A DNA stretch of 64,000 nucleotides. Source: a virus. Position 1 is the first letter of the stretch. Every line of letters starts with the position of its first letter. Shown here piece after piece: positions 1 through 52,455 of this stretch. The stretch spans positions 1 to 64,000 of the IMG/VR virus record IMGVR_UViG_3300033142_001406, one strand, 5' to 3'. The notes under the pieces are model-generated. The model did no database searches, had not been told where the DNA came from, and saw only the letters and a program-made list of their open reading frames with translations. Position numbers and translations under genes: made by a program.

Positions 1-223
1 CGTCGGGAGATATCTCTTCCCAGTAATCAACCGAATTCAAAAACTGAAGTACTTTTTCACTCGTAACTGGTCTTGGCAAAATATAATTACTTAGGCGGTT
101 TACAAGCGCCCCATATTTAAGTTCAGAAAAGCACTTCTCCACGGTGCAAAGCCTCACTGGGCTGAAGCACCTATTGACCCACACTTCCACTTCGTCTTTT
201 AGTTCTCTTCCTAAAGTTGCCAT
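1..223 (-). CDS. Hypothetical protein (C-terminus beyond the window)
   Basis: Open from an ATG at 223 to the window edge, 74 codons seen, no stop reached. The ATG follows a purine-rich Shine-Dalgarno stretch (AGAAGGAGAAGGGAG). The visible part begins MATLGRELKDEVEVW and carries three cysteines (VNRCFSPVRLCTVEKCF). I do not recognise a family. It lies downstream of, and in the same direction as, the next two small genes, so it is probably the next gene of that minus-strand unit. Confidence 0.6.
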   Translation of the reverse strand, partial: MATLGRELKDEVEVWVNRCFSPVRLCTVEKCFSELKYGALVNRLSNYILPRPVTSEKVLQFLNSVDYWEEISPD

Positions 224-8220: not shown

Positions 8221-8570
8221 ACAAGCAACTCCCGGTTAACCTTTTTGATTTGTTCCAGTTTATAAAAGCAGAAAGTGTCCCTCAGCTCCCGGTTTCGCTT
8301 CGTATCTTCTAAAGCCAGTTCCAGCGCGTCGGGGGACACGTCGACCGTGTTTATCTTAACAATTGATTTCCTTACTTCTAAGATCCCAGCAACGCTGATC
8401 AGCTCAAGATCGAAAAGAAGGGAGATATTAACGAGAGACTCTTTTCCGTATAACTCAGTGACTTCGCTTACCGGAATCTCTACAATTCGCCCAAGCTTGT
8501 TGCAGAGCAAACAGAGCTTGTGGACGATCTGCCCAACGAAGTGGTGGTGAGCTTGTCGTGTTGTGTGCAA
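8217..8570 (-). CDS. Hypothetical protein, possible degenerate winged helix
   Basis: 117 residues, TTG start with GAGGGGG upstream. It opens with a His-rich stretch (MHTTRQAHHHFVGQIVHKL). IPVSEVTELYGKESLVNISLLFDLELISV could be the DNA-binding helices, and VDVSPDALELALEDTKR takes the place of the usual LT.KG wing ending. The N-terminal Cys pair (LCLLC) and charged C-terminus are not shared. Membership of the array family is tentative. Confidence 0.5.
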   Translation of the reverse strand: MHTTRQAHHHFVGQIVHKLCLLCNKLGRIVEIPVSEVTELYGKESLVNISLLFDLELISVAGILEVRKSIVKINTVDVSPDALELALEDTKRNRELRDTFCFYKLEQIKKVNRELLV

Positions 8571-10195: not shown

Positions 10196-10452
10196 AATTC
10201 AATTCCTTCCACCTCGTTATTAATATGTAGTTGCTCTCCGAGATTAATCATAGCTAAGTGCGAGGTATCAAAAACTCTTGCAAGCCTCTCTTCAATCTCG
10301 TAAGTTGTATTTTTATTCTCTTGGAAAGCCCCGTAAATAGCGGAAGCGGCTGTCTTTGTTTTTTTTGTGAGGTAAGCTCCGTTGTAGCCCTTCTCTTTCG
10401 TCAAGTGTTTAAGTGCTATTCTAAAATAATCGTGAATATCTAATTCTTTCAA
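10183..10452 (-). CDS. Small HTH protein, NLG-type tandem family
   Basis: 89 residues, TTG with AGAGGA upstream. DYFRIALKHLTKEKGYNGAY, KTKTAASAIYGAFQENKN and LARVFDTSHLAMINLGEQL. It is the first of the four tandem relatives to be translated and is acidic at its C-terminus. Confidence 0.6.
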   Translation of the reverse strand: MKELDIHDYFRIALKHLTKEKGYNGAYLTKKTKTAASAIYGAFQENKNTTYEIEERLARVFDTSHLAMINLGEQLHINNEVEGIELCEK

Positions 10453-10465
10453 TTTCCTCTTACTC

Positions 10466-10810
10466 CTATTTATTATTATTATTATATTTTAGCAATTCGG
10501 ATTCTATTTCTGCTGGGGATAACTTACCATCCCGCACTTTCTCCAGTAGATTCATACTCGCTATAAAAGAGGTCTGTTTTACAATCCTCTCTCTCTTTTT
10601 TGAGGCGTTCCAAGTTGAAAACATATTCCCGAGCATACAAACAAAAGTAAATACGCAGTAATCAGTTAAACCCAACGAGAGATATTCTTTTGTCCCGTGT
10701 ATCGCAAAAAGGGGAGTAAGAAAAAGAGTGGTAACAAAGAAGATATTATCCAGATCAAGAAGCTGTCTTATTGATAACTCCTTCTTAAATAAGCTCTTGA
10801 TATTTCTCAC
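10466..10810 (-). CDS. Small membrane protein, two transmembrane segments
   Basis: 114 residues, GTG sharing bases with the upstream TGA. Two hydrophobic helices at about residues 23-38 (IFFVTTLFLTPLFAI) and about 49-66 (YCVFTFVCMLGNMFSTW), followed by a basic stretch (SKKRERIVK) and a helical cytoplasmic tail ending in five residues of Asn/Lys. Similar in size and topology to 5828-6172 but not clearly homologous. No family recognised. Confidence 0.6.
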   Translation of the reverse strand: MRNIKSLFKKELSIRQLLDLDNIFFVTTLFLTPLFAIHGTKEYLSLGLTDYCVFTFVCMLGNMFSTWNASKKRERIVKQTSFIASMNLLEKVRDGKLSPAEIESELLKYNNNNK

Positions 10811-10992
10811 TTTACGAGTCCCACTTTCTGCAAGTGCTTAACTATATTGAGGCAAGATCTTACTGCCTCACTTGCCAGAGCCTCTTCTGGGTGTGGTTTA
10901 GGTTCAATATTCCAACTCACGTTTGCTACTTCGTCGCAAACGTCTGTAATCTCGATTGTTGCTTTAAATATCCTCTTGTTCTCTTCGTTCAT
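10807..10992 (-). CDS. Small hypothetical protein
   Basis: 61 residues, ATG with AAGGA 7 nt upstream. A beta-like first half (FKATIEITDVCDEVANVSWNI) and a helical second half (EEALASEAVRSCLNIVKHLQ) ending in a basic tail. Overlaps the upstream gene by 29 nt. No function visible. Confidence 0.5.
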   Translation of the reverse strand: MNEENKRIFKATIEITDVCDEVANVSWNIEPKPHPEEALASEAVRSCLNIVKHLQKVGLVK

Positions 10993-11167
10993 CTTCGTTC
11001 CTTTTATCGACTAATTTAGCAAGTAAAAGAGCAATTATAGTTAACGTTGGCGATTCGCTCAAAGGCAGATTAAGAATATTCGGGGGTCCCTCGAAACAAA
11101 TATCGAGCTTCCCGTCCGGCAGATCTGTAAGAATTACTCTGACGGGTGTGTCTTTGTTAATACTCAA
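10964..11167 (-). CDS. Small hypothetical protein
   Basis: 67 residues, TTG with GGAGGA about 7 nt upstream. Strand-rich N-terminus (PVRVILTDLPDGKLDICFEG) and a hydrophobic helix (LTIIALLLAKLVDK) before a charged tail (RNEDERREQEDI). The hydrophobic part is short for a membrane span. Unknown. Confidence 0.5.
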   Translation of the reverse strand: MSINKDTPVRVILTDLPDGKLDICFEGPPNILNLPLSESPTLTIIALLLAKLVDKRNEDERREQEDI

Positions 11168-11451: not shown

Positions 11452-11890
11452 TTTCGGCTCCTTTCGCAGCTTCTCTTTCTTTTTCTGCCATACTTGAGCG
11501 GAAACCTAAGTATGACCCTCTATTTAGAGTTATATCATACACGCCCGGCTCTTTTGTTGAGATAGTCCCAAACAACGGTGTGAGTACAAATTGACCCTCT
11601 TCCTCCATATGAGCCTCCGAGCAGGTTTGAACAATAGCAAAGAATATATTGTTGTATTCTTCGATAGTTAGTCCGTCTTTTTCTATTCTATCCGAGATAT
11701 CAATCCGGTAATTAAACTGCTTAGTTGCTACAACTTGTTCAAGGAGTTTTTGGAGAATACTAGCACCCACCTCGCAAAGCTCCGGGCCAAAAAAGGACAT
11801 CTGAACCTCCCCTTCTGGAGCTTCTTCTCTCATCTTTTTTAGATCTTCTCGCGAAAGCTCTTTGTCTATTACTTTTAATTTAACGGTCAT
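11426..11890 (-). CDS. Hypothetical protein, first gene of the left array
   Basis: 154 residues, ATG with AGAGAG upstream. Acidic N-terminal helix (LSREDLKKMREEAPEGE), a central mixed region, and a strand-rich part (GQFVLTPLFGTISTKEPGVYD), then an Ala/Glu-rich tail ending AIFH. No family recognised. As the promoter-proximal gene it sets the 5' end of the array transcript. Confidence 0.6.
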   Translation of the reverse strand: MTVKLKVIDKELSREDLKKMREEAPEGEVQMSFFGPELCEVGASILQKLLEQVVATKQFNYRIDISDRIEKDGLTIEEYNNIFFAIVQTCSEAHMEEEGQFVLTPLFGTISTKEPGVYDITLNRGSYLGFRSSMAEKEREAAKGAESAEGAIFH

Positions 11891-12218
11891 TCCTATCTCT
11901 CTTTCTCCAGATATTATATTATATTATCTCTGATAGTATTCAGTGGTATTACTTTTCTTCCGTTGTCCAAAATAACTCCCAAATAGTCTATAAGCAGTAT
12001 CGGAGATACGTATACAAGTCAAGCACTTTCTCGGTATGCGCCGACGCAACTTAAGAACATCCGTATGGGCGCATTCTGGAGACTTTACCACACTCGCGTA
12101 TACATACGTATAGGCCCTGCTGCTTAAGTTCCCAGAACAGCGCGTGAGCGGGTCTTACGGGAGTATAAAGACTATCCCAGAACCCACGCTACGCGCCCAA
12201 TTCTTCCTAACACTATAG
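11891..12218. other. Noncoding region, candidate promoter for the left array
   Basis: No supported gene. On the minus strand TATAATATAAT at about 11911-11925 would serve as a -10 element for the gene starting at 11890; I see no good -35 at the usual spacing. Further upstream are short inverted repeats: AACTTAAG near 12050 and CTTAAGTT near 12126, and tracts such as GTATAC and ACGTAT. A structured leader or regulator-binding zone is possible. Confidence 0.35.
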
Positions 12219-12467
12219 ACTATACCTTAACGGTATAGTATAAGTTGATCCTAATAGTATATTAACAAGATGTTAATAAATACAAACCCGTAGGGTTTGT
12301 TTAATCTAATAAACTAATCTCTTATTAAGTTTAAATTAAGAGATAATTAGAAAACCCTTTAGGGTTTTCCTTATTAACTTAATAAATTAAATTAATCTAA
12401 GAATAAAGATCCCCTTTAGGGGATCTTCTTTTAATCTCTTATTAGAGAATTAAATATAAGAGATTAA
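12219..12467. repeat. Array of eight consecutive inverted repeats, AT-rich
   Basis: Eight perfect or near-perfect hairpins tile 249 bp. 12219-12239: ACTATACC stem, 5-nt loop. 12260-12278: TATTAACA stem. 12282-12300: ACAAACCC stem, GTA loop. 12317-12344: TCTCTTA stem. 12350-12369: GAAAACCCT stem, TT loop. 12371-12385: TTATTAA stem, 1-nt loop. 12406-12427: AAGATCCCCT stem, TT loop. 12431-12467: 12-bp stem TTAATCTCTTAT. It lies 24 bp from the end of the Rep-like gene. Candidates are a replication origin, a partition site, or a structured RNA or terminator cluster. Confidence 0.7.
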
Positions 12468-12490
12468 TCAAAATATCTTTTTAAAGAAAC

Positions 12491-13423
12491 TTAAGCATAT
12501 TTTGATTCCACTTCGAAAGCAGCAGCCAGCTCGGAGAGCTGTCTGTCTCTGCTTTTCAGAGTATTTATATTTTTAGGTATCCCTTTTCCAACACCAGCCA
12601 GCAGCGCTGACACGCTGCGGTCTGCTATCGGTTGTTGTCCAGCAACTTCTTTTTGGGGCTGCTTCTGTATGTATTCAGCAGCGTTAAGGTTTTTAGCAGC
12701 GGATATCCCGGCAGTCCTAAGCCACGCCCACGGGTGGCGTATTCGCTGCCAGAGACGGACGAGAATATACAGACATTCTTGTATTGCGTCCGGTCTGACC
12801 CGCTGTTTCCAGAGATAATTTATTGCAGCTTCTGCGTTAAACCGCCGCTTTTTTTGCGGAAGGGACTCAAACTTTCTGATTAGAGGCTTCGCAGCCTCCA
12901 GAAACTCAATCCGTTCCCTCTGGGTATTTTTTTCCGAAACCACCGCAGGTGCAGCTTTGGGGTTTTTAATATTATCTAGCTTAGAAGTTTCCGTTTCTTT
13001 ATTAGCGGGGGTTGTTTTTTGAGCGGCCAAACCACCGGGTATTCCGGCGTTTTGTAGGGCTTTATCATACTCAGTATGCCAGATCAGATAATAGTTGTTG
13101 TTCCGAACCTCAGCCGCGTGAGCCGCTTTGCGGTCACGGTGAGCCGCAGACTCGACAACAACAAGCTTTTTGCGCTTCAAACCGCTGATTATTTTACGGA
13201 TGGTGTCCGGGTGTCTTCCGAGCTGCTTCCCCAGATATTCGAGACTCGGGTAGGCGAAGCCGTGAATTTTAGATTGGAAATTTAAGAGCTTTAGGAGGTT
13301 TTTTTCTGTTGCAGTTATATATTCCCCCATATTATCCAGCACTTTATCGAAGGGAACTGGGAGGTTAAGGATCGGAATTAACTGGTCTATTTTGTAAATT
13401 TGGGCTTGATTTTTAGAATTCAT
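12491..13423 (-). CDS. Rep-like replication initiator with N-terminal HTH (HTH_36-like)
   Basis: 310 residues, ATG. Residues about 38-95 read as the winged-helix domain of plasmid and phage replication proteins: TATEKNLLKLLNFQSKIHG, YPSLEYLGKQLGRHPDTIRK, ISGLKRKKLVVVE. The middle (residues about 140-180) is low-complexity and the second half is basic and helical (RKFESLPQKKRRFN, WQRIRHPWAWLRTAG). Its start is immediately preceded by direct repeats (13433-13501) and its end by an AT-rich hairpin array, the surroundings expected of an iteron-type replicon. I infer origin binding. A transcriptional regulator is the main alternative. Confidence 0.6.
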   Translation of the reverse strand: MNSKNQAQIYKIDQLIPILNLPVPFDKVLDNMGEYITATEKNLLKLLNFQSKIHGFAYPSLEYLGKQLGRHPDTIRKIISGLKRKKLVVVESAAHRDRKAAHAAEVRNNNYYLIWHTEYDKALQNAGIPGGLAAQKTTPANKETETSKLDNIKNPKAAPAVVSEKNTQRERIEFLEAAKPLIRKFESLPQKKRRFNAEAAINYLWKQRVRPDAIQECLYILVRLWQRIRHPWAWLRTAGISAAKNLNAAEYIQKQPQKEVAGQQPIADRSVSALLAGVGKGIPKNINTLKSRDRQLSELAAAFEVESKYA

Positions 13424-13432
13424 CTGCTATAG

Positions 13433-13501
13433 TCTTTCTCAGTTTTGAGGGTTATCTTTCTCAGTTTTAAGGGTTCGTTCTTTTACGGGTTCTTTTACGG
13501 G
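13433..13501. repeat. Iteron-like direct repeats upstream of the Rep-like gene
   Basis: Two 21-nt copies (TCTTTCTCAGTTTT[g/a]AGGGTT) start at 13433 and 13455, a 22-bp period with one mismatch. They are followed by two exact 12-nt copies of TTCTTTTACGGG at 13478 and 13490. Read on the minus strand, all four contain an ACCC[G/T/C]..AAA core. Position (10 bp before the start codon) and helical phasing fit binding sites for the initiator or autoregulation by it. Confidence 0.65.
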
Positions 13502-13848: not shown

Positions 13849-13876
13849 TTGACAATTGTGGTAGGGTGCTTATATT
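13849..13876 (+). promoter_or_regulatory. Promoter for the rightward virion operon
   Basis: TTGACA at 13849-13854 and TATATT at 13871-13876, spacing 16. The spacer and -10 region contain ATTGTGG and TATATTGTGGAT; the latter is shared with the parA promoter and nearly with the one at 60499. It lies about 150 nt before the small terminase gene. Confidence 0.65.
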
Positions 13877-14617: not shown

Positions 14618-16060
14618 ATCGCCTTAGAAAGTATTGATTACAAAATTCTGCCAACCTACGCGAAGATCATAAATGACCCAAATCCTTACATATTTTGTCG
14701 GGGACCAGTTGGAAGCGGCAAGTCTTCCGGGTCAATTTGGCACATCTTTTTGAACGCGATAAACCAAGCTCCAAACGCAAAAGGAGTGCGTCACAGTCGC
14801 TACGCGATAATCAGATCCTCTTATCCAGCACTCAAATCGACAGTTATAAAATCTGTAATTGATTGGTTTGGCCCGATCGTCAAGATCGTTTACGACATAC
14901 CGATTCGAGGTATGATCAAAACACCCCTCCCGGATGGAACTTACGTTGAGTGCGAACTTATATTTCTTTCAACCAGCCTTGATACAGACGTTAAGAAGCT
15001 TCAATCACTTGAATTAACTGGAGCTTTTATCAACGAAACAACTGAAGTCCCTTTTGAGATCTTCAGTATGCTGAAGTCGCGTGTTGACAGATACCCGTCC
15101 CAGCGGGGTGTGGGGACAACCAAGAAATTTATACTTTGCGACTATAACTCTTGCGACACCGACCACTGGCTTTACAGACTCGCAGAAGAGATTAAACCAG
15201 AGAAGCACTCCTTTTACGCCCAACCTCCCGCGCTTTTATTTGACGGGAAAGATTACCGAGTCAACCCCGAAGCAGAGAATATCGAGAACCTCCCAGCAAC
15301 CTACTATACAGATATGGTTTACGGGCAAGATCCAGACTGGGTGAGTGTTTACGTTCTAAATAATTACGGGCAGGTCCGTACCGGACGCCCAGTTTACAAA
15401 GCTTACGCAGACCGGGTTCACTGCTCCCCGGTAGATATATTACCCCTGCGGGGTGTCCCTCTGGTTATCGGCTGCGACGTTGGACTCGACTGTTCGATAG
15501 TAATTACCCAACTTACACCCACCGGACAACTGCTGGTTATTGACGAGGTGAGTTGCGAGAACACATCCATTCTGGAGTTCGCTCACGATATTGTCTGGCC
15601 ACTTTTACGGAACAAATACAGAGAGTTTGAGTACGAGATTATCTGCGACCCAGCAGCAAAATTCAGATCGGCAAACGATAAACAGTCTGCTTTGGATATT
15701 ATGATCCGGGCAGGTTTACCAGTTCGGATCGCGTATACAAACGAGCCTCTGGCGAGGAGGGAAGCAGTAAACTTCTTCCTACGGAAGCAGATAGGAGGAG
15801 TAAGTGGCTTCTCCCTTTCACCACGTTGCAAAGTATTAAGAAAAGGATTTATAAGCGGGTATCGGTACTCAAAGTTGAGTAATTCCAATATGTTCAAAGA
15901 GAAGCCCGAGAAGAATTCTTTCAGTCACCCCCACGACGCTTTACAGTACGCGCTACTAGAATTGAGCAAGGGACGGGTTTTAAGAAAACGCCGACACTCC
16001 AATAGACCAACCTCAGATTTTAAGTATGACGGCACTCCAGCAACCAACGTAGGCTACTAA
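14618..16060 (+). CDS. terL: Terminase large subunit; start codon uncertain (AUC/AUU)
   Basis: About 480 residues. It packages DNA as the ATPase-nuclease motor. Walker A is RGPVGSGKS (codons 14699-14725), Walker B-like GAFINETTE lies near 15030, and the nuclease residues lie in GCDVGLDCSIVI, IDEVS and SHPHDALQYAL. The first canonical start (TTG 14750) lies after Walker A and would destroy the enzyme. The frame is open back to 14603. Candidates are ATC 14618 or ATT 14633. A GTG at 14591 in the same frame has an excellent Shine-Dalgarno (AAGAAGGA, 6 nt) but meets TAA after three codons. I place the start at 14618 provisionally. Confidence 0.85.
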   Translation: MALESIDYKILPTYAKIINDPNPYIFCRGPVGSGKSSGSIWHIFLNAINQAPNAKGVRHSRYAIIRSSYPALKSTVIKSVIDWFGPIVKIVYDIPIRGMIKTPLPDGTYVECELIFLSTSLDTDVKKLQSLELTGAFINETTEVPFEIFSMLKSRVDRYPSQRGVGTTKKFILCDYNSCDTDHWLYRLAEEIKPEKHSFYAQPPALLFDGKDYRVNPEAENIENLPATYYTDMVYGQDPDWVSVYVLNNYGQVRTGRPVYKAYADRVHCSPVDILPLRGVPLVIGCDVGLDCSIVITQLTPTGQLLVIDEVSCENTSILEFAHDIVWPLLRNKYREFEYEIICDPAAKFRSANDKQSALDIMIRAGLPVRIAYTNEPLARREAVNFFLRKQIGGVSGFSLSPRCKVLRKGFISGYRYSKLSNSNMFKEKPEKNSFSHPHDALQYALLELSKGRVLRKRRHSNRPTSDFKYDGTPATNVGY

Positions 16061-19849: not shown

Positions 19850-21835
19850 ATGCCAAGTCAATTAGAAAAAGAACAAGAGGTTTTTGAAAATCACTTCGAG
19901 GAAGAGATTCCAGAAGAGGGTGGTCCCCGCCCAGCATACTACGATCATATCAGTCCGTTGGGGATAAAACTGCAAGGTCTGTTTACTCAAGCAGAAGACG
20001 AGCGCCGGGACGTTGAAGAGGAGTGGTTAAAAGATCTCAGACAATACAAGGGGTTATACGACCCAGAAGTCCTCGCCAGAATCCACCCGAAAAGATCAAA
20101 AGCTTTTTTGTCGGTTACAAGAACAAAAGTAAAGACTGTGACCGCGAGGATGATGGATCTTCTATTTCCAGCATCCCGCGAAAAGAACTGGGGAATACAA
20201 CCCACCCCGGTACCGGAAATAAATCCGCAAATAAAACAGCAGATTACAGAACAATATATAGCAAAAACCAGCAAGACTCCGACTGAAGCTCAGATAAACG
20301 ACATCCTATACAACTTTGCTAAAAAATCAGCGGAGCGTATGGAAAAAGAGATAGCTGACCAGCTTGCAGAGCTGGAATATACAAAGATTGTAAGAGAGGT
20401 TATAAGCTCCGGGAATCTTTACGGAACCGGAATACTGAAAGGTCCTCTGGCCCAAGAGAAAGTTGCGAAGCGTTGGTTTCAATCAGACGCTGAAAACTGG
20501 GATTCACTCGATATTAAATCTCTTCATCCCTATTGCGAATTTGTTTCACTCTGGGATGTTTATCTCGATCAGTCAGCCAAGAATATAGAGGACTCTCGGT
20601 ATATTTTCCAGCGTTACGTTCTGCCCAAGAACAAGGTTCTGGAACTTGCCGAAAGATCTGATTTTAAAGCAGATCCTCTGACGCTTTACGTCAAAGACCA
20701 CCCTACGGGTGATAGCGAATACAAGGCGTTTGAAACAAACCTCAGTATGATCGACGGCAAGAATAGAGTGGGAACCACAATCCAGCGAGAGGGTTATTTT
20801 GACGTGCTGGAGTACTGGGGATTTATCGACGTTGAGGAGCTGAAGAATCTTGACGTTGACTTGAAGGGAATTCCAGAGGGAGCAACAGAGGTTGCTTGTA
20901 ACGTTTGGCTTCTTGGTAACGTAGTAATTAAAGTCGTTCTGTCCCCGATAAGCGGAATAGTTTTTCCTTACTATACCTACTATTTCGACAAAGACGAAAC
21001 GTCAATCTACGGGCAGGGCTTACCTTATATTATGAGGGACAGCCAAACACTCTTTAACGCCGCCGTCAGAGGAATGCTTGACAACGCGGCAATATCCGCT
21101 GGACCTATTATTGAAGCAAATATGGACCTCCTTGAGCCAGACGAAGATCCTACGGATCTGTTTCCGTTCCGGGTGTTTAAGAGGTCGGGACTCGGAATCG
21201 AGAGTACTCAAAGAGCAATCCACGTAGAGACTTTGCCTTCCTATACCAACGAGTTTATGGCGATGACAGAATTCTTTCTGGCAGCAGCCGACGAGACAAC
21301 CGCTATACCTCGCTATATGGCGGGGGACAGCACAAATATGGGAGGTGCTGCCACGACTGCCAGCGGTCTTAGTATGCTTTTCGGGGCAGTCAATATTACT
21401 CTCAAGGACCAAGTAACCAGTTACGACAACGATATTACTAAGAAATATATCAGAAACCACTACTTCTTTAATATGGAGTTCAGCCCCAAATCGGAGAACA
21501 AAGGGGATTACTCAGTTATTGCGAGAGGATCTACCTCGCTGGTTGCGAAGGAAGTTCAAGCAGAACATCTTAATCAGTTTATGATTACCACCAACAACGA
21601 GTATGATCAGCGGTACGTTAACAGAGACGTTTGCCTCCGCGAGTTCGCCAAATCACTCGATTTAACTGAATTTGGACTGATCAAACCACCAGAACAAGTC
21701 GCTCACGAAAACGAAATAAGAGCAAAACAGAACCAGCAGCAACAAGAATTTGAGCGAGAACTCGCAAAAGAGAAGGCTGCTTCGGGCGGCCATATGGCCG
21801 ACAAAGGCCAGACTCCCCAGTTAGGAACGCCCTAA
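19850..21835 (+). CDS. Portal (head-tail connector) protein
   Basis: 661 residues, ATG. An acidic N-terminus leads to a typical podovirus portal pattern: W..DL.QYKG.YDPEVLA, RSKAFLSVTRTKVKTVTARMMDLLFPA (residues about 80-107), then LHPYCEFVSLWDVYLDQSAK and YTYYFDKDETSIYGQGLPYIMRDSQ (residues about 375-400), with a C-terminal coiled, Gln/Glu-rich tail (QNQQQQEFERELAKEKAA). It forms the dodecameric DNA gate at the capsid vertex and partners the terminase. The position before scaffold and capsid genes agrees. Confidence 0.85.
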   Translation: MPSQLEKEQEVFENHFEEEIPEEGGPRPAYYDHISPLGIKLQGLFTQAEDERRDVEEEWLKDLRQYKGLYDPEVLARIHPKRSKAFLSVTRTKVKTVTARMMDLLFPASREKNWGIQPTPVPEINPQIKQQITEQYIAKTSKTPTEAQINDILYNFAKKSAERMEKEIADQLAELEYTKIVREVISSGNLYGTGILKGPLAQEKVAKRWFQSDAENWDSLDIKSLHPYCEFVSLWDVYLDQSAKNIEDSRYIFQRYVLPKNKVLELAERSDFKADPLTLYVKDHPTGDSEYKAFETNLSMIDGKNRVGTTIQREGYFDVLEYWGFIDVEELKNLDVDLKGIPEGATEVACNVWLLGNVVIKVVLSPISGIVFPYYTYYFDKDETSIYGQGLPYIMRDSQTLFNAAVRGMLDNAAISAGPIIEANMDLLEPDEDPTDLFPFRVFKRSGLGIESTQRAIHVETLPSYTNEFMAMTEFFLAAADETTAIPRYMAGDSTNMGGAATTASGLSMLFGAVNITLKDQVTSYDNDITKKYIRNHYFFNMEFSPKSENKGDYSVIARGSTSLVAKEVQAEHLNQFMITTNNEYDQRYVNRDVCLREFAKSLDLTEFGLIKPPEQVAHENEIRAKQNQQQQEFERELAKEKAASGGHMADKGQTPQLGTP

Positions 21836-22968: not shown

Positions 22969-24123
22969 ATGGCATACGAAGGAACAAGCTACGGACATAT
23001 TACTCCTCGGACGGCAGCATACGTAAGTAAAGAATTACTTAAGCGTGGGATGCCCTTTCTCGTTTTTGAACGATTTGGACAAGCAAAGCCTATCCCCAAG
23101 AACAGCACTCAAAGTATTAAATTTAGACGATATTTCCTTGAATCGGCTGATATTTTTGCACTTGATACCACTACCCCGTCAGTAACCGACGGAGTGGCCT
23201 CTGGTCCGGGTCTTGTTACAGAGCAGGACGACGGCACTATAGACTATACTCCTTTCGAGTATTTTGACGGAACTAATAACCCCTTTAGGGTTAATACCAA
23301 AGTCTTGGCGGAAGGTACAACTCCTTCCAGCTCAAAACTGGCTTCTGAAGATATCAGTAAATCCCTTGTTCAGTACGGGGATTGGGTGCAACTGACTGAT
23401 ATGATTGCAGATACTCACGAAGATCCCGTTCTCCAAGAAATAATTTCTGTACTTGGTGAGCAGGCGGCGTTAGTAATCGAGAGAACCCGATACAACGATT
23501 TGGTTTTGGGAACAAACGCTTTCTATTCCGGCGGGACAAGCACTGTCACGGTAGATAGTATATACGACCTCAACCTTCAGAGAAGGGCTGTAAGAAGGTT
23601 GAAGAAAAACTTAGCTAGGCAGATCACTTCTGTAGTCAAGAGTACAACCAGCTACGGAACGCAACCGATCGCTCCCAGTTTTATCTGCGTTGTCCACCCA
23701 GATATGGAGTCAGACCTGCGTAGTCTGGGTAATTTTGTACCCGCAGAGGCTTACGGATCTACTACCCCACTTGAGGGTGAGCTTGGTAAGTGCGAGGAGG
23801 TTAGATTTATCGTTTCTACGATTGTCCAGCCCCTTGCAGACGAAGGAAAGGACGCGCCAACGGGAGTACTTTTAAACGGTACAGCGGCGATGGTATACCC
23901 CGCACTACTGTTCGCCAAGGATGCCTATGCGCTTATCTCCCTTAAAGGAAAGCACGCTATTACTCCGATGGTGCGTAACCCCAACAATCCTAGTAGTTCC
24001 GATCCTTTGGGACAGCGTGGCTTCGTTTCTTGGAAAACCACTACTGGCGGCGCTCTCATTCTGAATCCGGCGTGGATGGTACGCCTTGAATGTGCCGTAT
24101 CTGACCTTTTAGCGGCAGAGTAA
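22969..24123 (+). CDS. Major capsid protein, N4-gp56 family
   Basis: 384 residues, ATG with AAAGAGGT upstream. It begins GTSYGHITPRTAAYVSKELL; key segments are GDWVQLTDMIADTHEDPVLQ (residues about 138-157), IERTRYNDLVLGTNAFYSGG, and FICVVHPDMESDLRSL. These are hallmark stretches of the N4-gp56-type major capsid proteins, which adopt the HK97 fold. It is followed by a strong terminator, as expected for a highly expressed gene. Confidence 0.9.
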   Translation: MAYEGTSYGHITPRTAAYVSKELLKRGMPFLVFERFGQAKPIPKNSTQSIKFRRYFLESADIFALDTTTPSVTDGVASGPGLVTEQDDGTIDYTPFEYFDGTNNPFRVNTKVLAEGTTPSSSKLASEDISKSLVQYGDWVQLTDMIADTHEDPVLQEIISVLGEQAALVIERTRYNDLVLGTNAFYSGGTSTVTVDSIYDLNLQRRAVRRLKKNLARQITSVVKSTTSYGTQPIAPSFICVVHPDMESDLRSLGNFVPAEAYGSTTPLEGELGKCEEVRFIVSTIVQPLADEGKDAPTGVLLNGTAAMVYPALLFAKDAYALISLKGKHAITPMVRNPNNPSSSDPLGQRGFVSWKTTTGGALILNPAWMVRLECAVSDLLAAE

Positions 24124-24134
24124 TAATTAACGAG

Positions 24135-24159
24135 GCGGGGGATTCCTCCCCCGCTTTTT
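24135..24159 (+). terminator. Rho-independent terminator after the capsid gene
   Basis: GCGGGGGA-TTCC-TCCCCCGC followed by TTTTT, 11 nt after the capsid stop. It probably attenuates rather than stops transcription, since the tail genes continue in the same direction, unless they have a promoter in 24165-24246. Confidence 0.85.
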
Positions 24160-24164
24160 AGTAC

Positions 24165-24246
24165 TACCCCAAATACTTTATTTTTAACTGCTATAAATAC
24201 TTTACTTTATACTTTACTATTAAACCATATAATACTTTACTATAAG
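24165..24246. repeat. AT-rich tract with repeated ATACTTTACT units
   Basis: Four or so imperfect copies of AATACTTTA(CT) occur in 80 nt, interspersed with TATAAA and TATAAT. The tract follows the capsid terminator and precedes the next gene, so it may hold a promoter restarting transcription. Similar TATTTACTTTAC units occur near 610-680. Confidence 0.45.
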
Positions 24247-24254
24247 GAACTAAA

Positions 24255-24890
24255 TTGGAAAAAGAACAACAAAACTTACCTTCACTAAAATCTTTGTACT
24301 GGAGATCGTCCAACGATCAGATTAAAGAACTGTCAGAATACAGAGAGATAGAAAACGTAGAGGATGCCTCCCGGCAGGATATAATCGAAGCCCTTTTAAA
24401 GTGGGACGAAGATAACGAGGAGCTGGCCGGAAAGGGAATCTCAGTAACGGAAGACGGTGAAGCGTATATCGATATTGACTTTATCCCGGAGATGGACCGG
24501 GACTTGGCTGAAGAGATCGAAGCGGTTGGTATTGACCCAGAAGACGTTATTGAATTTGAAGCAGCTCCAAAGCCGTCAAAGATCAATATTCCGATCACTC
24601 GCGCCAAGGGCGTGAGGCTTAAGTCCTCGAAACCAAAGGAAAAGAAGTTTTTCCGCGTCTTGTTCCACCGCCAAGAAGGGCAGACCAAGTATGTCTATCT
24701 GGGGTGCAACGACAGCGACGTATATCTCCCCAGAGAACGTCCCTGCAAACTCCCTATTGAATTTTTGGGTGTGATCAGATCAGCAGCGGTTATCAGAACA
24801 GAGGAGCGGAGAAGACCAGACGGGAGGGTTGATCGAGTTGAGGTTAGAATCCCCTCTCTCTCTTACGAAATACTTCCAGATATAGATTAA
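24255..24890 (+). CDS. Hypothetical virion protein
   Basis: 211 residues, TTG start with AAGGA upstream. Residues 1-100 are acidic and helical (DASRQDIIEALLKWDEDNEE is reminiscent of a short SAP/HeH-like helical hairpin). The second half is beta-rich and basic (KFFRVLFHRQEGQTKYVYLG, DVYLPRERPCKLPIEFLGVI). By position, between capsid and adaptor genes, probably a head-completion or minor head protein. Confidence 0.6.
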   Translation: MEKEQQNLPSLKSLYWRSSNDQIKELSEYREIENVEDASRQDIIEALLKWDEDNEELAGKGISVTEDGEAYIDIDFIPEMDRDLAEEIEAVGIDPEDVIEFEAAPKPSKINIPITRAKGVRLKSSKPKEKKFFRVLFHRQEGQTKYVYLGCNDSDVYLPRERPCKLPIEFLGVIRSAAVIRTEERRRPDGRVDRVEVRIPSLSYEILPDID

Positions 24891-26518: not shown

Positions 26519-28098
26519 AGCTAATAATAAAGAACTTCGGCGGGATGATTCCAAAGACTGCTCCTCAACTTCTCCCCGCTAATAACGCAGAGTGGGCGCT
26601 GCACTGCGACCTTTCAGCAGGTTCTCTGCAAGGGTTCAAGAGTAGTACAACAGAGGTTCCAAGTATTGGTGGGGGTCTTAACACCGTTTATAAATACGGG
26701 GATACTTGGCTCAAGTGGCAGCAGGTTGTAAATATAATAAACGCGCCTATTTACGGTACGGAAGATATTGTTTATTTTACGGGAAAAGACGAGCCTCAGA
26801 TTTCCAAGACCGGGTTTATCCAAAACGGGACTTCTTACACGCTGGGGGTACCAGCTCCACCCAACGCCCCGACCGTTGTAGTTTCCGACCCAGAGGGTGA
26901 TCCTTTAGACGAATCGGTAACAGAAACAAGAGCTTACGCTTTTACCCGCGTAGACGATTACGGGCAAGAATCAGCACCTTCTCCACTCTCAGCACCCGAA
27001 GATCTAATTGTTGGGCAGATTTGCACCTTGACTTTGGGCGGTAATTATACTGGGACATACCCAAACTCGGATAACTCGTATCTTCGAGTATACCGAACAG
27101 TTACAGGCACTTCCGGGACCAACCTACACTATATTGGCAAGACTGATTATTTAACAGATACTGAATTTATTGATACTGTACCAGCGACCGGGATAGCGGA
27201 AGTCTGTCCCTCTTACGGGTGGTTAGAGCCACCCACAGACCTTGAGGGTCTGGTGAGTATGCCTAACGGGATCGGGGTTGCCTACCACGGCAAAGAGATC
27301 TGTTTTTCAGTACCCTACCAATTACACGCGTGGCCGATCGGTAATCGGCAGCGAGTGGACAGTGAGGTTGTCGGTTTGGGAGTTGTAGGAAATAGCGTAT
27401 TTATTGCAACAAAAACAAATCCTTATATAATTACCGGGACAGACCCACAAAGTATGAGTGTGGAAAAAGTAGAGACAACTCACCCTTGCGTGAGCAAGCG
27501 GGGACTTGTCGATCTTGGATATACTATTGTCTATCCCTCCACTACCGGACTCGTCGCAGCAACTTACGGACAAATTCCCGAACTGGTAACGGAAGACTTC
27601 TTCTCTCCTAAAGAGTGGCAAGACCTTGACCCCGAAAGTATTGTTGCGTACCCCTTGGAGGGCGGCTATTTGTTTTTTACTTCTGGCCCAACTTACCTCT
27701 TTAAGCCTCGGGAAAAACAACTAATACAGATAAATATATACGGCAGTTGTGGGTATGTTGACCCCGAGACCGGGGAGTTTTATTTTATAAACTCGTCAAA
27801 CCTCTTGAAGTGGAACGATGGTATAACCCCTTTTTATACTTGGGAATCTAAAACTTTTATCACCCCTAAACCAGTTAACTTCGGGTGTGGCTGTATTCAC
27901 ACGGGGGGAACGGGGTCGGTCAATCTGACTATCTACGCAGACGGGGATATCGTCCACGAAGCTTATATCACTAACTCCACTCCTTTTAGACTCCCATCCG
28001 GTTTTGTTGCCAGTGAATATAGGTTCAAGTTCTCGGGAAGCGCACCTATATATGAATTTCAAATCGCGAGTGAAATGAGCGAGTTAGCGACAATATGA
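26515..28098 (+). CDS. Tail/head-closure structural protein
   Basis: 527 residues from TTG 26515, overlapping the previous stop, with AAGGA upstream. It starts LIIKNFGGMIPKTAPQLLP and continues with repeated strands suggestive of a beta-propeller (ETRAYAFTRVDDYGQESAPS, NSYLRVYRTVTGTSGTNLHY, NSVFIATKTNPYIITG). It resembles large podovirus tail-body proteins by size, content and position. No enzymatic motif seen. Confidence 0.65.
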   Translation: MKLIIKNFGGMIPKTAPQLLPANNAEWALHCDLSAGSLQGFKSSTTEVPSIGGGLNTVYKYGDTWLKWQQVVNIINAPIYGTEDIVYFTGKDEPQISKTGFIQNGTSYTLGVPAPPNAPTVVVSDPEGDPLDESVTETRAYAFTRVDDYGQESAPSPLSAPEDLIVGQICTLTLGGNYTGTYPNSDNSYLRVYRTVTGTSGTNLHYIGKTDYLTDTEFIDTVPATGIAEVCPSYGWLEPPTDLEGLVSMPNGIGVAYHGKEICFSVPYQLHAWPIGNRQRVDSEVVGLGVVGNSVFIATKTNPYIITGTDPQSMSVEKVETTHPCVSKRGLVDLGYTIVYPSTTGLVAATYGQIPELVTEDFFSPKEWQDLDPESIVAYPLEGGYLFFTSGPTYLFKPREKQLIQINIYGSCGYVDPETGEFYFINSSNLLKWNDGITPFYTWESKTFITPKPVNFGCGCIHTGGTGSVNLTIYADGDIVHEAYITNSTPFRLPSGFVASEYRFKFSGSAPIYEFQIASEMSELATI

Positions 28099-35975: not shown

Positions 35976-38900
35976 ATGGATCAAAAAGACCTTATAATCA
36001 ATCTGGCCCGCCGTAATAATTTCGACCTTGAAAGAGCACTTAACGACGGGCACTCTTACGAGGATATTTTAGCGTATTTGCAAGAAGAATCGGGAGTTAC
36101 CGGAGAAAGGCCAGAAGGAGATCCCGGTTTTATCGGCGGCGTAAAGGACTTCGGACTCGGTATCGCCAGAGGCGCTCTTGTCTCTCTACCGCAAAAAGTG
36201 GGACAGACATTCCAGCGTTGGGATGACGAAGGTGGGGATGACACTCTCCGAGATTTAGGAATCTCGCTTGAAGAAACTGGAGACGAGAATCTCCAAGAAC
36301 AACCTTGGCTTCAAGAGTCCCGACTGTCTATAGAAAAACGGCAAGAATCCCCTTGGAATATACGAGGCTGGGGTTACTCAGCCGGGGACAGTCTTATTAC
36401 CTCACTCGCCCCGGCAGCGGTGGGTGCGGCGGCGGTAGTCGCGGGGGCACCCGCAGCGGTGGGGGTTGGTATCGGTGTTGTAACGGTCGGTGCTTTATTC
36501 TACGGATCGGAAGCAGAACAAACCTACAGACGTGCCCTCCCAGAACTCGGGCACGAAGAAGCGTTAGAATTGTCCAGACTAACCGGACTGATAGAAGCCG
36601 GGGGAGAGATCGTTGCCGACCTTATCCCGCTCTGGTTTTTTAAAGCACTTCCCAGTCCCGCCAGAAAGAATATCCTCAAAGCCCTTACCTCAAAAAAAGG
36701 TGTCCGGGGGATTATTTGGGATATTATTAAAGTTGAGGCCCTTGAAGTCAGCACTGAAATAGGGCAGTCTACAGCGCAAGGATTAGCCGAAGAAAGATTC
36801 GGTATGGGGGACCAGCCGCTACTTGATAACGCTTTAGCCGTTATCGGTCCGACCCTAATTGTCGGCGGTCTGTATGGTACAGCCGGATCTGTCGGCGGTA
36901 ACGCCCGACGTAGCTGGATGGTGGAAACTCTTAAAGATCCCAAAGCTCCGATAGAAGATAAACGGAAGATTATAGCGGAGATAACCGAAGCAGTTACGAA
37001 GAAAGACGCGGAGCTGGGTGCTGCTTTTTCGAAGCAAGCAACCGCCCTTGCCGAAGCTAAGAAGCCCGTTCTGATTGGGGAGGATAGTAAGTACGAAAGT
37101 AAGAAAGAAACTAAGCAAGAGAGTAAGAAAGAAAGAGAGATAGTAAGTAAGCCAGAGGCAGAGATAGAAAGAGAGACGGACGTTCAGAGAGGGGCGTTAG
37201 ATACTAATTTTATTGCAGATCCTAACGATAGTCTCCAAGTCCAAAATCAAAAAAGAATACGCGGGATAGTTGGACCGGAGGCAAAGGGGAGCACCACTTT
37301 TGAAGATACGTTAAGCGACGGTTCTGAAAGACCCGGAGTAACCCCCTCCCAATTCAACAAGGGATTATCAGAAGAGGTTCTGAAAAACCACTTTGAGGCT
37401 GTTGGAAAACAGAAAGAGGGTGAGGCATCCCGAAATCAAAGTATGCTTATAAAGCGTTTTAATTATACGCTTAACCGCTTTAAGCAGCTTGTAAAGTATA
37501 AAGATACTTACGCTTATTCTCTCCAAGAAATCGGGGATCAATACGAGCAAGCACTCCAAAGTACCAATTTAAGAGATCTTTCTTCAACAAGGGATCTGTT
37601 CACCCGACTACAATCCCAAGAACAAAAAATAACTGAGGTTGACCAGCAACTTATCAAAGCTGCTGAAGACCTCCTCTCCCTTGGGGGCGAGACTAAATCA
37701 GTTGACCAGCAGACTTTAGCCCGTATTCAAAAAGAGATAAATCCAGAGACTTTAAAGCAACAAGCCGAACGAAGACAACAGCTTATCAACGACGCGCAAG
37801 AGCGTGGAAACAAAGTTCTTCAAGAAGCTGAATACAAAAACTCCCCGGAGTACGCAAAGGAAGTTGACAAAGAAAGACAACAGCAAGAAGCGGATCAGAT
37901 TAAAAAAAGACAAGCCGAAACCAAACAAGCCGCCGAAGCTAAAAAGAAGAAAGACGAGCATACCAAAGCTATAGACGACCTTTACGAGAAAACCAAGAAG
38001 AGACTCTCCGAGTCTCCCGTATTTTTAAGAAACGAAGATCTGTCCAAGCAGATCCTAAACGCTATTCACACCGAGCGGTTGGGAGCTGCCGAAATTGAGC
38101 GTGTTATCCGGCAAGCAGAGTTAAATCGTCTGGAAGAGAGTGGAACTCTCCAGAGTATCACCGAGATGATAGAGGACAAACAATCACCCGGCAAAAAAGA
38201 CAAAGGCGCAATAGCGCGGGGTGTTGTCCAGCAAGACAAAGACAAGGCCCAAGCAGCCAAAACAAGGGCTGCTGACAAAAAGACCCAAGAAAAAGCAGAC
38301 GAGGTAACGGAACAAGAACGCCTTGGAGCTGCTGCAATAAAGCGCCGTGACTTAAAGGGAAGATTAAAAGATAAGTACGGTACCAAGAGGCAAAGGAAGA
38401 AGGATGTTGAAGCGGCGGTAAAAGAAAAACAAGAACAAGATCAGAAGGTTGAGGAGCTTGGAGACGAAAAGGGTAGCACTCCCAAGAAGCCGAAGAAGAA
38501 ACAAACTCCTCCTCCGAAAAAGAAATCTGCCCTTCGGGTAAAGCTGGACGATAAGAAGAAAAAGAAAGAGGAGCCTAAACCAAAGCCCCCCAAGAAGAAA
38601 AAGGCTACCCCCGTTGAAAAGAAAGTTGTAACCCCAAGGGTTACACCACCGAAGAAGAAAACCGTTACTGACGCAGCTAAAAAAGAAGCAGCGGCAGAAA
38701 AGAAAAGAGAAGCCGCCGCCAAGAAATATCAGGCCAACAAAAAGAAACGAGAAGCTGACGTTGACGAGAACAACCGCCTCGTCCAGAAGGGCAAGGAGCT
38801 GATCCCGACGATCCGGCTCGAAGATGCGCGGGAAGTCGGAGAGATGGGCGAACTTCTGGAGAAGGGAGAGATCACCCCAGACGAGTGGGACTCTTTTGTT

Positions 38901-41900
38901 GAGCGGATGTTCAAAGAGAACCGAGCAAAAGGTAAGATTAACGAGGCTTTAGGAGACCCGAAAAGAAAGAAAGCCCCACCCAAAGACCCACACGCTAAAC
39001 TGTTTAATAAGAAGAAAACAATCGAAGTTTCCGGCCACACCTTTACCGCGCCGAAGTACAACAGCACCCAAGGGGAGTGGTACACCGAAACAGAGGGTCG
39101 TCGGTTTGTTTTAAGAAAGTCTCCCCCGGAGGATGCTATTGCCCGTCAGTGGTTTGTTCGGGAATTTGACTCCAACAACCCCTCAACGACAAGGGGTGAA
39201 CAGCTTGTCCCGGACAACACCAAAAAAGCCTCTCTCCAGTTTGTCGTTGACGAGTACCTAACTGATAAACCTAAAGATCCCACCGAAGGTGGGAACACTC
39301 CAAAAGGTAAAAGGCCGATAAAGGATGTTAAGACGATCCTAAAAAAGAAGAAAGATTTACCAGATAAGGACAACAGATTCAAGAAGACAACAAAAGAGGA
39401 AAACTCAACCGCAGAAGGGCAGAAGGGGATGTTTGATATAGCCCAAGCAACTGGACCCCTCCGGGGGATGGTTGCAGCTATCGAAAAAGCCGGGGGGATT
39501 TCCCCGGTAAGTTTAAAGGAGATAGATAATATCTCTTCTGAAAAAGAGCTGGACGACCTACGTGAGACTTTGAGAGTAGCTTATAACAAATCGCTCAAAA
39601 AACCAGAGTCAAAACCTTCTAAAAAAAAGAGAAAGAAAGACGAGCGAACTTCTGAAGAGATTCTACTTAATAAAGGTATTGCGGCACTAAACAAAGTTGG
39701 TAAAGCTCAGAAAGAGGAGTTACTTGGTAAGGTTGACGCAGAAATCAAGCTGCTTGAGACTTCGGATGTCTACTACGAAAAAGAGCTGGTAATCAGTCTC
39801 GATAATTCTCCAACCTCCTTCACCTTTTACCGGGAGAATTTCTATAAAAAAACAAATAAAGATGGGTCCAAAGAAACAGTTAAAGTAACTATGCTTGACG
39901 CTTTAAAGGAGTTTAAAAAGAAGCTGACCGCGACCAGCTTTAACGCAGACAGCCCCTATAAAAAACCCCCAGTACAAAATACGACAAGTGTTACAGCTCA
40001 TATTGAAAAACGAGCGTATAAAAAGAAAACACAAAAACCAATACCCCCAAAGGGTAAATATATTCAACCAATATACCAAGACGGGTTTTATTCAAACAGA
40101 CAATATTTAGTTAAGATGGACGACGCGCCCAGTGTGGGAAAGCTCCCGTATGCTACTGGCAAAATAAATATGGAATCTATTTTATCTACGACGGGACTTG
40201 AGGAAGTTACTCTCGGAAAAGAGTATCTTGACACCCGACTTATTCACGATCCAGAATCTCCGATAGCTGCCCACGACGCTGAAAGCGTCATACACGTTGA
40301 ATTTGAGGATGGAGATCTTAAGCACTATATATACAAGACTACGTATATCAACGCCATCCTCACCGAGCACCCCAAAGCAACCCCAAAGCTTCACCCCCCT
40401 ACCGGGATGCTGAAGTTTTTTGACGGGTCTGAAGAGATTGTCGGAATTACGATGCCCGTTGGGAATAATCTTAAGGTCGGTAGTACAACGGGCCTAATAC
40501 CAGCAATAAAGGAGGAGCTGGGTATAGATCCTACTGACCCAGCTCATATGGCAGAGTTTGATAGGATGAGGGCAACTGAGTTTAAACTTAATAAGATTTA
40601 TAAGAAGACCGGAGTACGGTATCTTGCTGGACTCCCAAGAGGCACTTGGTACGATCCAGCAGGTAAAGAAATTATAGGCAAGCAAATATCTGAACTGACA
40701 AACCTTTCTCACGCAGAGGTAGAGGGTATCGAGAGTTTGGGCAAGCTCAGTATGAAACTGGGTGGGAGATCCGATAAATACAGCCCACTACAAGTCGCAG
40801 AAGCGCTCTATAACGCGGGTATGAGTGGGAACAAGGGGTTTGCAAGAATCCCCCGAAAGAAGCGCACCTTTATTACCAACGGGGATGACGTGTTTGAAAT
40901 AAGAGATTCGGGGTGGGGGAATCCTCTCGTATTCCCAGTGGTAAGTGCCGGACACTTTACCCTTTCCGACGAGCAGATATTAAGTATTCAAACCGAGTAT
41001 AAAGAAAAAGACCAGCAGACCTTTACAATACCAGATAACCCCGACGTTTCCTTTACAACTGGTCAAAAAACAAATCAGAACCCGATTTCAGAAACCCAAA
41101 TAAAACAAGCCTTTAAGGGCCAATCTGTCATATTGACGGGCAAAAAAACTTATTCAGTTCGCTTCCAGAATGGACGCGGAGCGACTATAAAAATCGTAGA
41201 CCAGACCCCCGAAGGAAGTGTTCTAATCGAAGCCAAAGGCGGGGTACTTAACCGGAACGGCCAGTTGATCGCCGGAAAGCAGTACGGAACGACAATCGAG
41301 CTTGTTGAGGGTGTGGCTACCGAAGACGTGCTCACGCACGAAATACAGCACCTTTTAGAGCGTATAGGGGTAGTAACACCCGCAGACGTTAAAGTGCTGG
41401 ACAAGGCCGTAATAAGGGCGTCTAAACGTAACAAACTTGCATACGAGTTGCACTCAGACCCAAGGGAGAACCGCGCTTACTTCATCCAGCAGCTTATCAG
41501 AGAAAGAAAGGACGGTCGGGGGACCGTCACTGGGAGAGTAGTACAAAAGATAAAAGACTTCTTCTCCAAGCTGGCGAAGAGTATATTCGGTATTGAGTCT
41601 GCTAGTAATATAGCAAGAGAACTGGAGAGTGGCGAGATTTTTAAACGAGAAGCTATAAAACAGCAAGAACTACCAATCTCCACTGAGCAACCACTTTACT
41701 CCACCGTAAACGGGTTTGACCACCTCAAGATCAAGTCAACCGCAACAAAGGCAATCCGTAATACCAATATGGGCAAGAAGTCCCTCTGGGACAATATTAA
41801 AGATACGAAAGACTTTATTCTCGGAGATATAAAGGGAAACGCGAAGAGGGGTAAGAACCACTTCGTAGAGCAATATCTCGATAGATATAAGTATCTTAAG

Positions 41901-50294: not shown

Positions 50295-52280
50295 CTAAGA
50301 TACCCCCTTATAGAATTGACGATTAGGATAATCCTTTTCTCGACGGACCGCCGCCCAGTGCTTTGTATTTGTTAAGAAACCAACTATTCTCGTAAAATTA
50401 TTTATAATCGGGGACTTGCAAATATTGCAAGTGTCTTTCCTCCCGACGGTCATATGACCGTTCTCACATTCTTGGAGATTGTAGTTCACAGCCCAATAAA
50501 TCACTCCCCGTTTTGCAGCCATTCTGATAAGCTTTTCCATATCCTCAACGTCTTCAATTCTCTCTTCGACGTTGACGTGACAGATTGCACCTCCCGAGAA
50601 CATCCCGTCGAATTTCCCTTGTATTTCAAGACGTTCAAGCAACGTAGCCTCCGCTTGCAGCGGAATAAACTGATTGCTATAAAAGGGCAGATTGGCTTTG
50701 TTAAACCCAAGATATTTGTCCTTAGTTGCCAGCTTGATTGCTGAACTTTCGGCTGGTACTTGCTCGATATTGTGAGGCGTTTTGTGCCTCTTCTGAGCAA
50801 TCTTAGATACAAGGTCTAAGGCCCGTATGATACGTTCTGCGACGTTCTGACCAGTTTCTGATACTATACTATGCCCCAGCAGCTCAACGGCCTCGTATAG
50901 CCCCGTTATTCCTATCGTTGAGTATTGTTTACTCAACTCCATATAACCAAGATCATACAACGGGAGTGCTCCCCGAGCGATCCTATCAGCGAGAATGGAA
51001 CGCTTCGCAGCGTTAATCTTGACCGCTTTCCCGGCAACCAGACAGATTTCGTGGATAACTGCTGGGAAGTCGTTGGGATTTGTTCTGAGTGTTTCCTCAA
51101 CCAACCGGGGAAGGTTGATAGTACAAACTCCTAAACTTCCGATCTTTGTACTTCCAGATCCAAAGCTGTTAAAATACTCGTTTCGAGTGTCGGATCTCAA
51201 GCGACAACAAGAACTTAGCGTACTTGACTTACCACAGTAGATATTGATAAACCCGTATTTTTTGTTCTCTTCAGCAATCAGCTTGAGGAAGCCTTCGTCT
51301 TGAATTTCACCCTCGTCGTTAACGGTGAAGCAAGCCGTTGTTACCGGGAAAGTGATTGGGGCGCGGCGTAACTCTTCATTCATAACTTCCAAATAAACAC
51401 GTTGTAAATTTTCTACTGTAGTAAACGTGGGGATAGCGCCGTCTTTAAATTTATAATCTTTTACGAGTGATTCCAAGAAGTTATCGTCAAAGACGCTGAT
51501 ATTAACGAACGGACTTTCAGCACCCCTCATAGGGAAGTTGAAACCGTAGATTAGGGAAGTTAAAGTCTCTCTTACGTAAGTCCAAACATCCTCTTCAGTA
51601 TTCCCAACCACGATATTCCCATCCCGGAATATCGCGTACTCGAATACTTCACAATCTTCTTTAAAATCTCTGAACGATACAAACTGCTCTATATCGTTAA
51701 ATTCTAATATCTTATCAATATAGTAAGCCATACAAATCAGCAGGTCAGCGAGTCCGGTGGCCCCAGCGGTACTCTGGGAGGCGTTGACAACGAACTGCTC
51801 AATCTGGCTCTTAAAAGTAAAGAGCGATTTGGGGGGCAAAGAGCGCACCTTTGCGCCCATCTGAAGTCCTCCAAGCGCAATATCGTAGCAGCTATAGTTA
51901 AAGCAGTAAGGCTTCGCAAGAGAGTGGAAGTCGTTGATATAAATTCTTCCAACAAGCTGATCTTCTAATATCTGGTTTGCGGTTTGGAGATCGTAAAGAT
52001 CCCGCAACTCTTGCCAGAGGAGAAAGTATGAATTGTAACGCTGAAAGGGCTTAGAAGCCTCGTAATTATAGGCAATTACGTCTTTTGTAGCAACGTTGCT
52101 GTTGCTGTCCACCGAAGCGTCGGCGGTGGTTGTTTTGTTTTTGAAAAACTCCTTCGCGAATAAATTCTGGTCTAATTGCTTTCCTATCCCGTCGATATCA
52201 AACAGTTCTTTTCCGTACTTGCTCCACAAGTACATCATAACTGTATCGAAGTCTGAGTCGTAACCAACTTTAATAAACAC
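50295..52280 (-). CDS. nrdD: Anaerobic (class III) ribonucleoside-triphosphate reductase
   Basis: 661 residues from GTG 52280 with GGAGG upstream; the open frame extends further but overlaps the upstream gene. It reduces NTPs to dNTPs through a glycyl radical. The C-terminal RIVGFL holds the radical Gly (about residue 634) and the zinc site is CENGH...CNICKS just before it. Internal landmarks include GAESPFVNISVFDDNF and SCCRLRSD. No aerobic nrdA/B is visible in the window, so the phage appears to depend on the oxygen-sensitive enzyme. Confidence 0.9.
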   Translation of the reverse strand: MFIKVGYDSDFDTVMMYLWSKYGKELFDIDGIGKQLDQNLFAKEFFKNKTTTADASVDSNSNVATKDVIAYNYEASKPFQRYNSYFLLWQELRDLYDLQTANQILEDQLVGRIYINDFHSLAKPYCFNYSCYDIALGGLQMGAKVRSLPPKSLFTFKSQIEQFVVNASQSTAGATGLADLLICMAYYIDKILEFNDIEQFVSFRDFKEDCEVFEYAIFRDGNIVVGNTEEDVWTYVRETLTSLIYGFNFPMRGAESPFVNISVFDDNFLESLVKDYKFKDGAIPTFTTVENLQRVYLEVMNEELRRAPITFPVTTACFTVNDEGEIQDEGFLKLIAEENKKYGFINIYCGKSSTLSSCCRLRSDTRNEYFNSFGSGSTKIGSLGVCTINLPRLVEETLRTNPNDFPAVIHEICLVAGKAVKINAAKRSILADRIARGALPLYDLGYMELSKQYSTIGITGLYEAVELLGHSIVSETGQNVAERIIRALDLVSKIAQKRHKTPHNIEQVPAESSAIKLATKDKYLGFNKANLPFYSNQFIPLQAEATLLERLEIQGKFDGMFSGGAICHVNVEERIEDVEDMEKLIRMAAKRGVIYWAVNYNLQECENGHMTVGRKDTCNICKSPIINNFTRIVGFLTNTKHWAAVRREKDYPNRQFYKGVS

Positions 52281-52455
52281 CCCGTAGCACCTCCGTATAT
52301 ATCTTTTTTGCGTCTTGATATTTCCGACGCCGACCAACGGCGTAAACCACCCCCGTCTTGGGGTGCTGGACGTACTTCTTTTCAGCACTGATACCGTGAC
52401 GTTCGCAAATCCGATTGACAATCTTTCTTAATCTTTTCGCTTGTTTACCGTTCAT
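52270..52455 (-). CDS. Small basic hypothetical protein
   Basis: 61 residues from ATG 52455, sharing ATGA with the dut stop. Basic throughout (KQAKRLRKIVNRICERHG, VGRRRKYQDAKKIYTEVLRG), suggesting nucleic-acid binding. It overlaps the nrdD start by 11 nt. Confidence 0.55.
   Translation of the reverse strand: MNGKQAKRLRKIVNRICERHGISAEKKYVQHPKTGVVYAVGRRRKYQDAKKIYTEVLRGVY

Follow-up and report, generated by a model that had tools for sequence, protein, structure and literature searches.

An AT-rich array of tiled hairpins in the putative origin/control region of a temperate podovirus and its relatives

What role is played by a row of closely packed palindromes next to a replication-type gene is the question raised by positions 12219-12467 of the window analysed here, that is, the whole 64,000-nt stretch covering positions 1 to 64,000 of the IMG/VR virus record IMGVR_UViG_3300033142_001406. 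An initial annotation had described this segment as eight tiled inverted repeats, read them as DNA palindromes rather than terminators, and offered a candidate origin, a centromere for the partner of ParA, or a packaging or recombination site as explanations.

The repeats themselves proved to be real. When stems with arms of at least 7 bp were counted, the array, to which no strand is assigned, consisted of eight perfect inverted repeats with arms of 7-12 bp: stem 1 (12219-12239; 8-bp arms, loop of 5), stem 2 (12260-12278; 8 bp, loop 3), stem 3 (12282-12300; 8 bp, loop 3), stem 4 (12317-12344; 8 bp, loop 12), stem 5 (12350-12369; 9 bp, loop 2), stem 6 (12371-12385; 7 bp, loop 1), stem 7 (12406-12427; 10 bp, loop 2), and stem 8 (12431-12467; 12 bp, loop 13). 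The near absence of a loop, remarked on earlier for several stems, applies to some of them only, and the count of eight is correct within 12219-12467, to which a ninth inverted repeat should be added (12466-12507, no strand assigned; 11-bp arms AATCAAAATAT/ATATTTTGATT with 20 nt between them) that overlaps the last codons at the 3' end of the adjoining rep-like gene. Stems 3, 5, and 7 have CCC..GGG cores (AAACCC-GTA-GGGTTT, AAAACCCTTTAGGGTTTT, and AGATCCCCTTTAGGGGATCT) and are interspersed with AT-rich dyads, four of the eight stems contain just 0-2 G/C per arm, and a 13-nt copy, TAATCTCTTATTA, is common to stems 4 and 8.

Stem coverage amounts to 140 of the 249 nt, a value never attained in 2000 Markov samples (mean 17.8, maximum 88) or in 300 dinucleotide shuffles (z 6.0-10.3), and among all 250-bp stretches of the 64 kb the array ranks first, the independent runner-up covering 58 nt. 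The array is thus not a product of chance. Its GC content is 0.24 versus 0.45 for the genome, and both the 100-bp and the 250-bp GC minima of the complete record fall within it, which bears out the AT-richness noted at the outset. Nevertheless, AT-richness alone is an insufficient explanation, because hairpins are not clearly in excess at 24120-24300 or 10380-10640, which are likewise AT-rich parts of the window. Single-strand folding of the array was also much stronger than that of shuffled sequences (RNA z -7.2 and -6.4 for the two strands, DNA z -7.8), and the predicted fold of the + strand contained no G-U among 85 pairs, compared with approximately 10% in shuffles. The same tendency was found in the arrays of L031, L200, and L190, three contigs of relatives described below. 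On either strand of the window's array, the fold is made up of Watson-Crick pairs nearly throughout. Such scarcity of G-U pairs fits selection, or template-switch repair, acting on a DNA palindrome; it is supportive of a DNA function and is not proof of it, since a perfect palindrome necessarily folds on either strand. An Rfam scan of the window returned a tRNA-Gln only, so that the array matches no known structured RNA, and blastn searches with the array region gave no match or short, weak ones.

The virus record to which the window belongs is 68,137 bp long and is classed as linear. A circular, complete map is nevertheless probable because the record ends share a 114-bp direct overlap (window 1-114 corresponds to L009:8025-8138, record 68024-68137). 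The virus is a temperate podovirus of 68 kb, whose genome encodes an SU10-type portal, a phage capsid protein, an integrase, ParA, NrdD, a family-A DNA polymerase, a DnaB-type helicase, and a primase. A leftward gene block runs from about 48 kb to the record end and continues through 0-13.4 kb, a rightward block extends from about 13.9 to 45 kb, and the array sits in the control region that separates the leftward replication-side operon from the rightward structural operon. The latter is headed by a conserved rightward promoter, TTGACA-N16-TATATT with a TGCTTAT motif (13849-13876, + strand), and includes the genes for the terminase large subunit (terL, 14750-16060, + strand) and the SU10-type portal protein (19850-21835, + strand). 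Elsewhere in the window, positions 35976-44537 encode a protein of 2853 aa that carries an LPD38 (large polyvalent protein) domain close to the C-terminus and of which only the last ~870 residues are common to relatives; its other matches are PHROGs without assigned function. The presence of NrdD, an anaerobic ribonucleotide reductase (50295-52421), and of the tRNA-Gln (55972-56048) suggests an anaerobic or facultative host.

Several features of the control region surround the array. On its left lies a non-coding control stretch preceding the leftward operon (11891-12218, no strand assigned; z 3.4), which carries two copies of TCCCAGAAC as well as AACTTAAG and CGTATAC dyads. On its right, at a distance of 24 bp, ends the gene for a 310-aa O-like replication initiator (12491-13423, - strand; HTH_36, PHROG 678/270/428), whose match to phrog_678 has an E-value of 2.7e-8 and whose HTH_36 match falls just below the Pfam curated cut-off. 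An AlphaFold model built without homologues had a pLDDT of 37 and gives no structural support, no nicking domain was found in this initiator, and no homologue of it could be detected in viral contigs, genomes, phages, plasmids, or the relatives. Upstream of the rep start, iteron-like tandem direct repeats occupy 13433-13500 (no strand assigned; repeated 8-mers z 3.2), with TCTTTCTCAGTTTTGAGGGTT present at 13433-13453 and 13455-13475 and GTTCTTTTACGG present twice at 13477-13500; no DnaA box free of mismatches was found. Along the 68-kb record, detrended GC skew reaches its minimum at 12231, inside the array; this would agree with an origin, but the signal is inseparable from gene direction. 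Third-codon-position skew was considered as proof of replication direction and dropped as uninformative, that of rep being unremarkable (rank 22 of 63).

A search for similar arrays in relatives had been proposed, and such arrays do recur. Relatives were identified by terminase searches, with terL as anchor, and by searches with the portal protein as query (portals approximately 37-53% identical); their genomes, scanned whole or nearly so, were compared with that of the window's virus (G000). Strong arrays were found in G007 (contig L031, portal 51%; six stems at 8276-8459 of the contig, z 9-12), G016 (L200, 48%; at least 10 stems in 430 bp, z 7.7-8.6), and G019 (L134, 52%; z 9-10), the contig ends of the last joining within the array. 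G017, G018, and G020, whose portals are 37-44% identical, have weaker sets that are AT-rich (z 2.4-7.1). The contig of G002 ends in the array region, the complete genome G012 has the AT trough and lacks a clear hairpin excess, and scans of the more distant G011 and G025 revealed no array. In the array-bearing relatives, the array lies at or near the genome's own AT minimum in the same control region, while its distance to terL differs. The promoter motif TTGAC-N-TGCTTAT is common, with small changes, to G000, G002, G007, G012, and G019, and G016 has a perfect TTGACA-17-TATAAT promoter. Of six genomes tested, five show an enrichment of short repeats in the control region. In G007 and G016, the gap of about 140-165 bp between promoter and array is geneless, both operons diverge away, and no gene reads into the array; in the window, rep occupies this gap. 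Thus, array and Rep are not strictly linked, as relatives carry arrays without a detectable homologue of the window's initiator. The arrays could not be aligned overall between relatives, although one CCCC hairpin plus its flanks aligns between G016 and G019. In the portal tree, array bearers are found in both subclades, implying that the trait is either old or recurrent. Nor is it confined to a single site in G017 (the contig of L190), where three hairpin-dense AT-rich intergenic stretches with ACTTAAGT palindromes were identified (10860-11110, 11890-12120, and 26765-26930), two flanking a weakly HU/IHF-like gene and one lying between primase and dnaB. Separately, TGTCTCA/TGAGACA repeats are present some 500 bp from the array, on the side of the leftward operon, in G007 (L129:7725-7790) and G019 (L220:703-730) and may be a shared operator of these two genomes.

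Hairpin arrays were also encountered in other phages. A DNA pattern of tandem CCCTTTAGGG hairpins matched 12 contigs, several of which are other phages with hairpin arrays of their own, and three of the 12 (L020, L026, and L029), retrieved by the hairpins alone, encode portals 28-30% identical to that of the window. In L021 and L024, viral contigs matching the same pattern, the hairpins are scattered over kilobases. Two further phages carry homologous arrays of approximately 30 hairpins over 1.3 kb (L022:6966-8286 and L030:511-1818). Between their stems, 29 pairs differ at both positions and still form Watson-Crick pairs, 3 have become G-T, and 7 are broken, and 20 of 83 loop positions differ; as judged from these sequences, the double changes would fit template switching as well as selection. 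Pseudomonas phage Rollin (L208:1-500) has a leader of 1.4 kb with four copies of a AAAAGGTAG..CTACCTTTT palindrome, close to where its record contains a run of N; the apparent AT minimum of Rollin was discarded because it consists of such a run and is not real sequence.

Among the proposals of the initial annotation, a candidate origin is the reading best supported by position, the AT minimum, the adjoining O-like initiator, and recurrence in relatives. The AT minimum, the control region, the initiator next door, and the nearby repeats make this an origin-like place, while the absence of clear hairpins in G012, the extra arrays of G017, the lack of conservation of the initiator, and the confounded skew are points against it. 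Our best reading, held at about even odds, is that the array is the structured AT-rich element of an origin/control region and that, after melting, its strands fold into hairpins; melting, folding, and initiation are steps that we infer. The initiator, probably the adjoining O-like protein and perhaps acting via the repeats at 13433-13500, or else promoter-driven supercoiling, would open the least stable stretch, and each opened strand would then snap into a row of hairpins, keeping the region open and giving entry to the phage DnaB-type helicase and primase. Alternatively, the hairpins might bind an architectural protein.

Other functions have to be weighed against an origin element. Tandem, partly bidirectional intrinsic terminators that stop rep transcription and separate the two operons would agree with the location of the array directly after the rep stop codon and with three weakly terminator-like hairpins (0.1 expected), which have G+C cores and T-rich tails; L200 has as many as 13 such sites versus 1.1 expected, and in G019 a small leftward ORF, read by eye, lies between array and promoter. 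However, only three of the eight hairpins qualify, and loosely, their T tracts being interrupted, half of the stems contain few or no G/C (0-2 per arm), and L031 contains just 2 terminator-like sites versus 0.8 expected. Moreover, a terminator role cannot be general, because the array keeps its position in G007 and G016 with operons diverging and no gene reading inward; together with the absence of G-U pairs, this favours the earlier preference for DNA palindromes, and the terminator explanation is considered unlikely. A second function would be that of a silencer, insulator, or condensation platform, in which a phage or host architectural protein of the HU/IHF or H-NS type, bound to the AT-rich palindromes, controls the divergent operons, for example in lysogeny. 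The control-region repeats and the location in the control region of a conserved promoter are consistent with this, as is the weakly HU/IHF-like gene beside the array in G017 and G018 (PF00216, E 0.029 and 3.6e-4), but these matches are under curated cut-offs, no HU-like gene was found beside the array in G000, and simple protein binding does not need eight tiled stems, making this role quite unlikely.

It is also conceivable, with low probability, that the palindromes have no specific job and that template switching repairs and multiplies inverted repeats in AT-rich non-coding DNA. This would account for stems that are near-perfect and varied in sequence, for the hairpins inside L200 that vary symmetrically, for the 29 two-sided changes of the unrelated L022 and L030 arrays, which are also expected from arm-to-arm correction, and for the absence of hairpins in G012 and their several dense stretches in G017; it would not account for a control-region position that recurs in six relatives, or for the absence of a clear hairpin excess from AT-rich DNA elsewhere in the window. 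A packaging (pac/cos) or site-specific recombination site, to which the contig end of G002 and the closure of G019 at the array region might point, is highly improbable. Hairpins are a common cause of assembly breaks, G000 and G012 circularise elsewhere (overlaps of 114 and 123 bp), the integrase lies 34 kb from the array, and the distance to terL varies. Two further candidates were rejected. The suggested centromere of a ParABS system is disfavoured by the finding of ParA in only one of 12 genomes, G000, with none in 11 relatives while six of these carry arrays. Single-stranded hairpin promoters of the N4 type share with the array the small size of the DNA hairpins, the 3-nt loops of some of them, and the podovirus setting, but no virion RNA polymerase was found in the window's virus, the giant protein being of the LPD38 type and the other scanned proteins giving no match to such a polymerase.

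The preferred origin/control reading can be compared with known initiator-dependent systems. In lambda O/ori, an initiator-dependent origin, an AT-rich melting region lies next to the gene of the initiator. Similarly, oriV of RA3 is located at the 3' end of the initiator gene and has an AT-rich region next to it (PMC9455977). The window resembles these systems in its divergent operons, in the repeats of its control region, and in an AT-rich stretch at the 3' end of a gene for an O/Rep-type initiator; it differs in that eight tiled hairpins are present instead of a clear iteron set or DnaA boxes, and in that relatives keep arrays without a detectable homologue of the initiator. The plasmid pT181 replicates by the rolling-circle mechanism, and its initiator is a nicking protein. 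At its origin, the pT181 initiator enhances the extrusion of cruciforms (PMC3176155). Inverted repeats at a putative origin, proposed to fold upon initiator action, are likewise present in the window; unlike pT181, it combines many short tiled stems with an O-like helix-turn-helix protein. Within a partial coverage of the literature, no relevant description of hairpin arrays in phages or of inverted repeats in HMO-2011 was found. The array may tentatively represent an undescribed class of phage origin/control element, in which tiled hairpins are kept by pairing and not by sequence across a temperate podovirus lineage, whatever partner protein (O-like or HU/IHF-like) adjoins, a generalization that we hold as possible rather than probable.

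Few environmental phages have a known origin. For a lineage with a distant relationship to HMO-2011- and Rollin-type phages, the array offers a signature that can be recognised and tested: an AT minimum together with tiled hairpins, placed in the control region that holds a conserved promoter. If the proposed role is true, this would be an origin in which many short hairpins, and not a conserved sequence, are kept, an arrangement that may suit different partner proteins.
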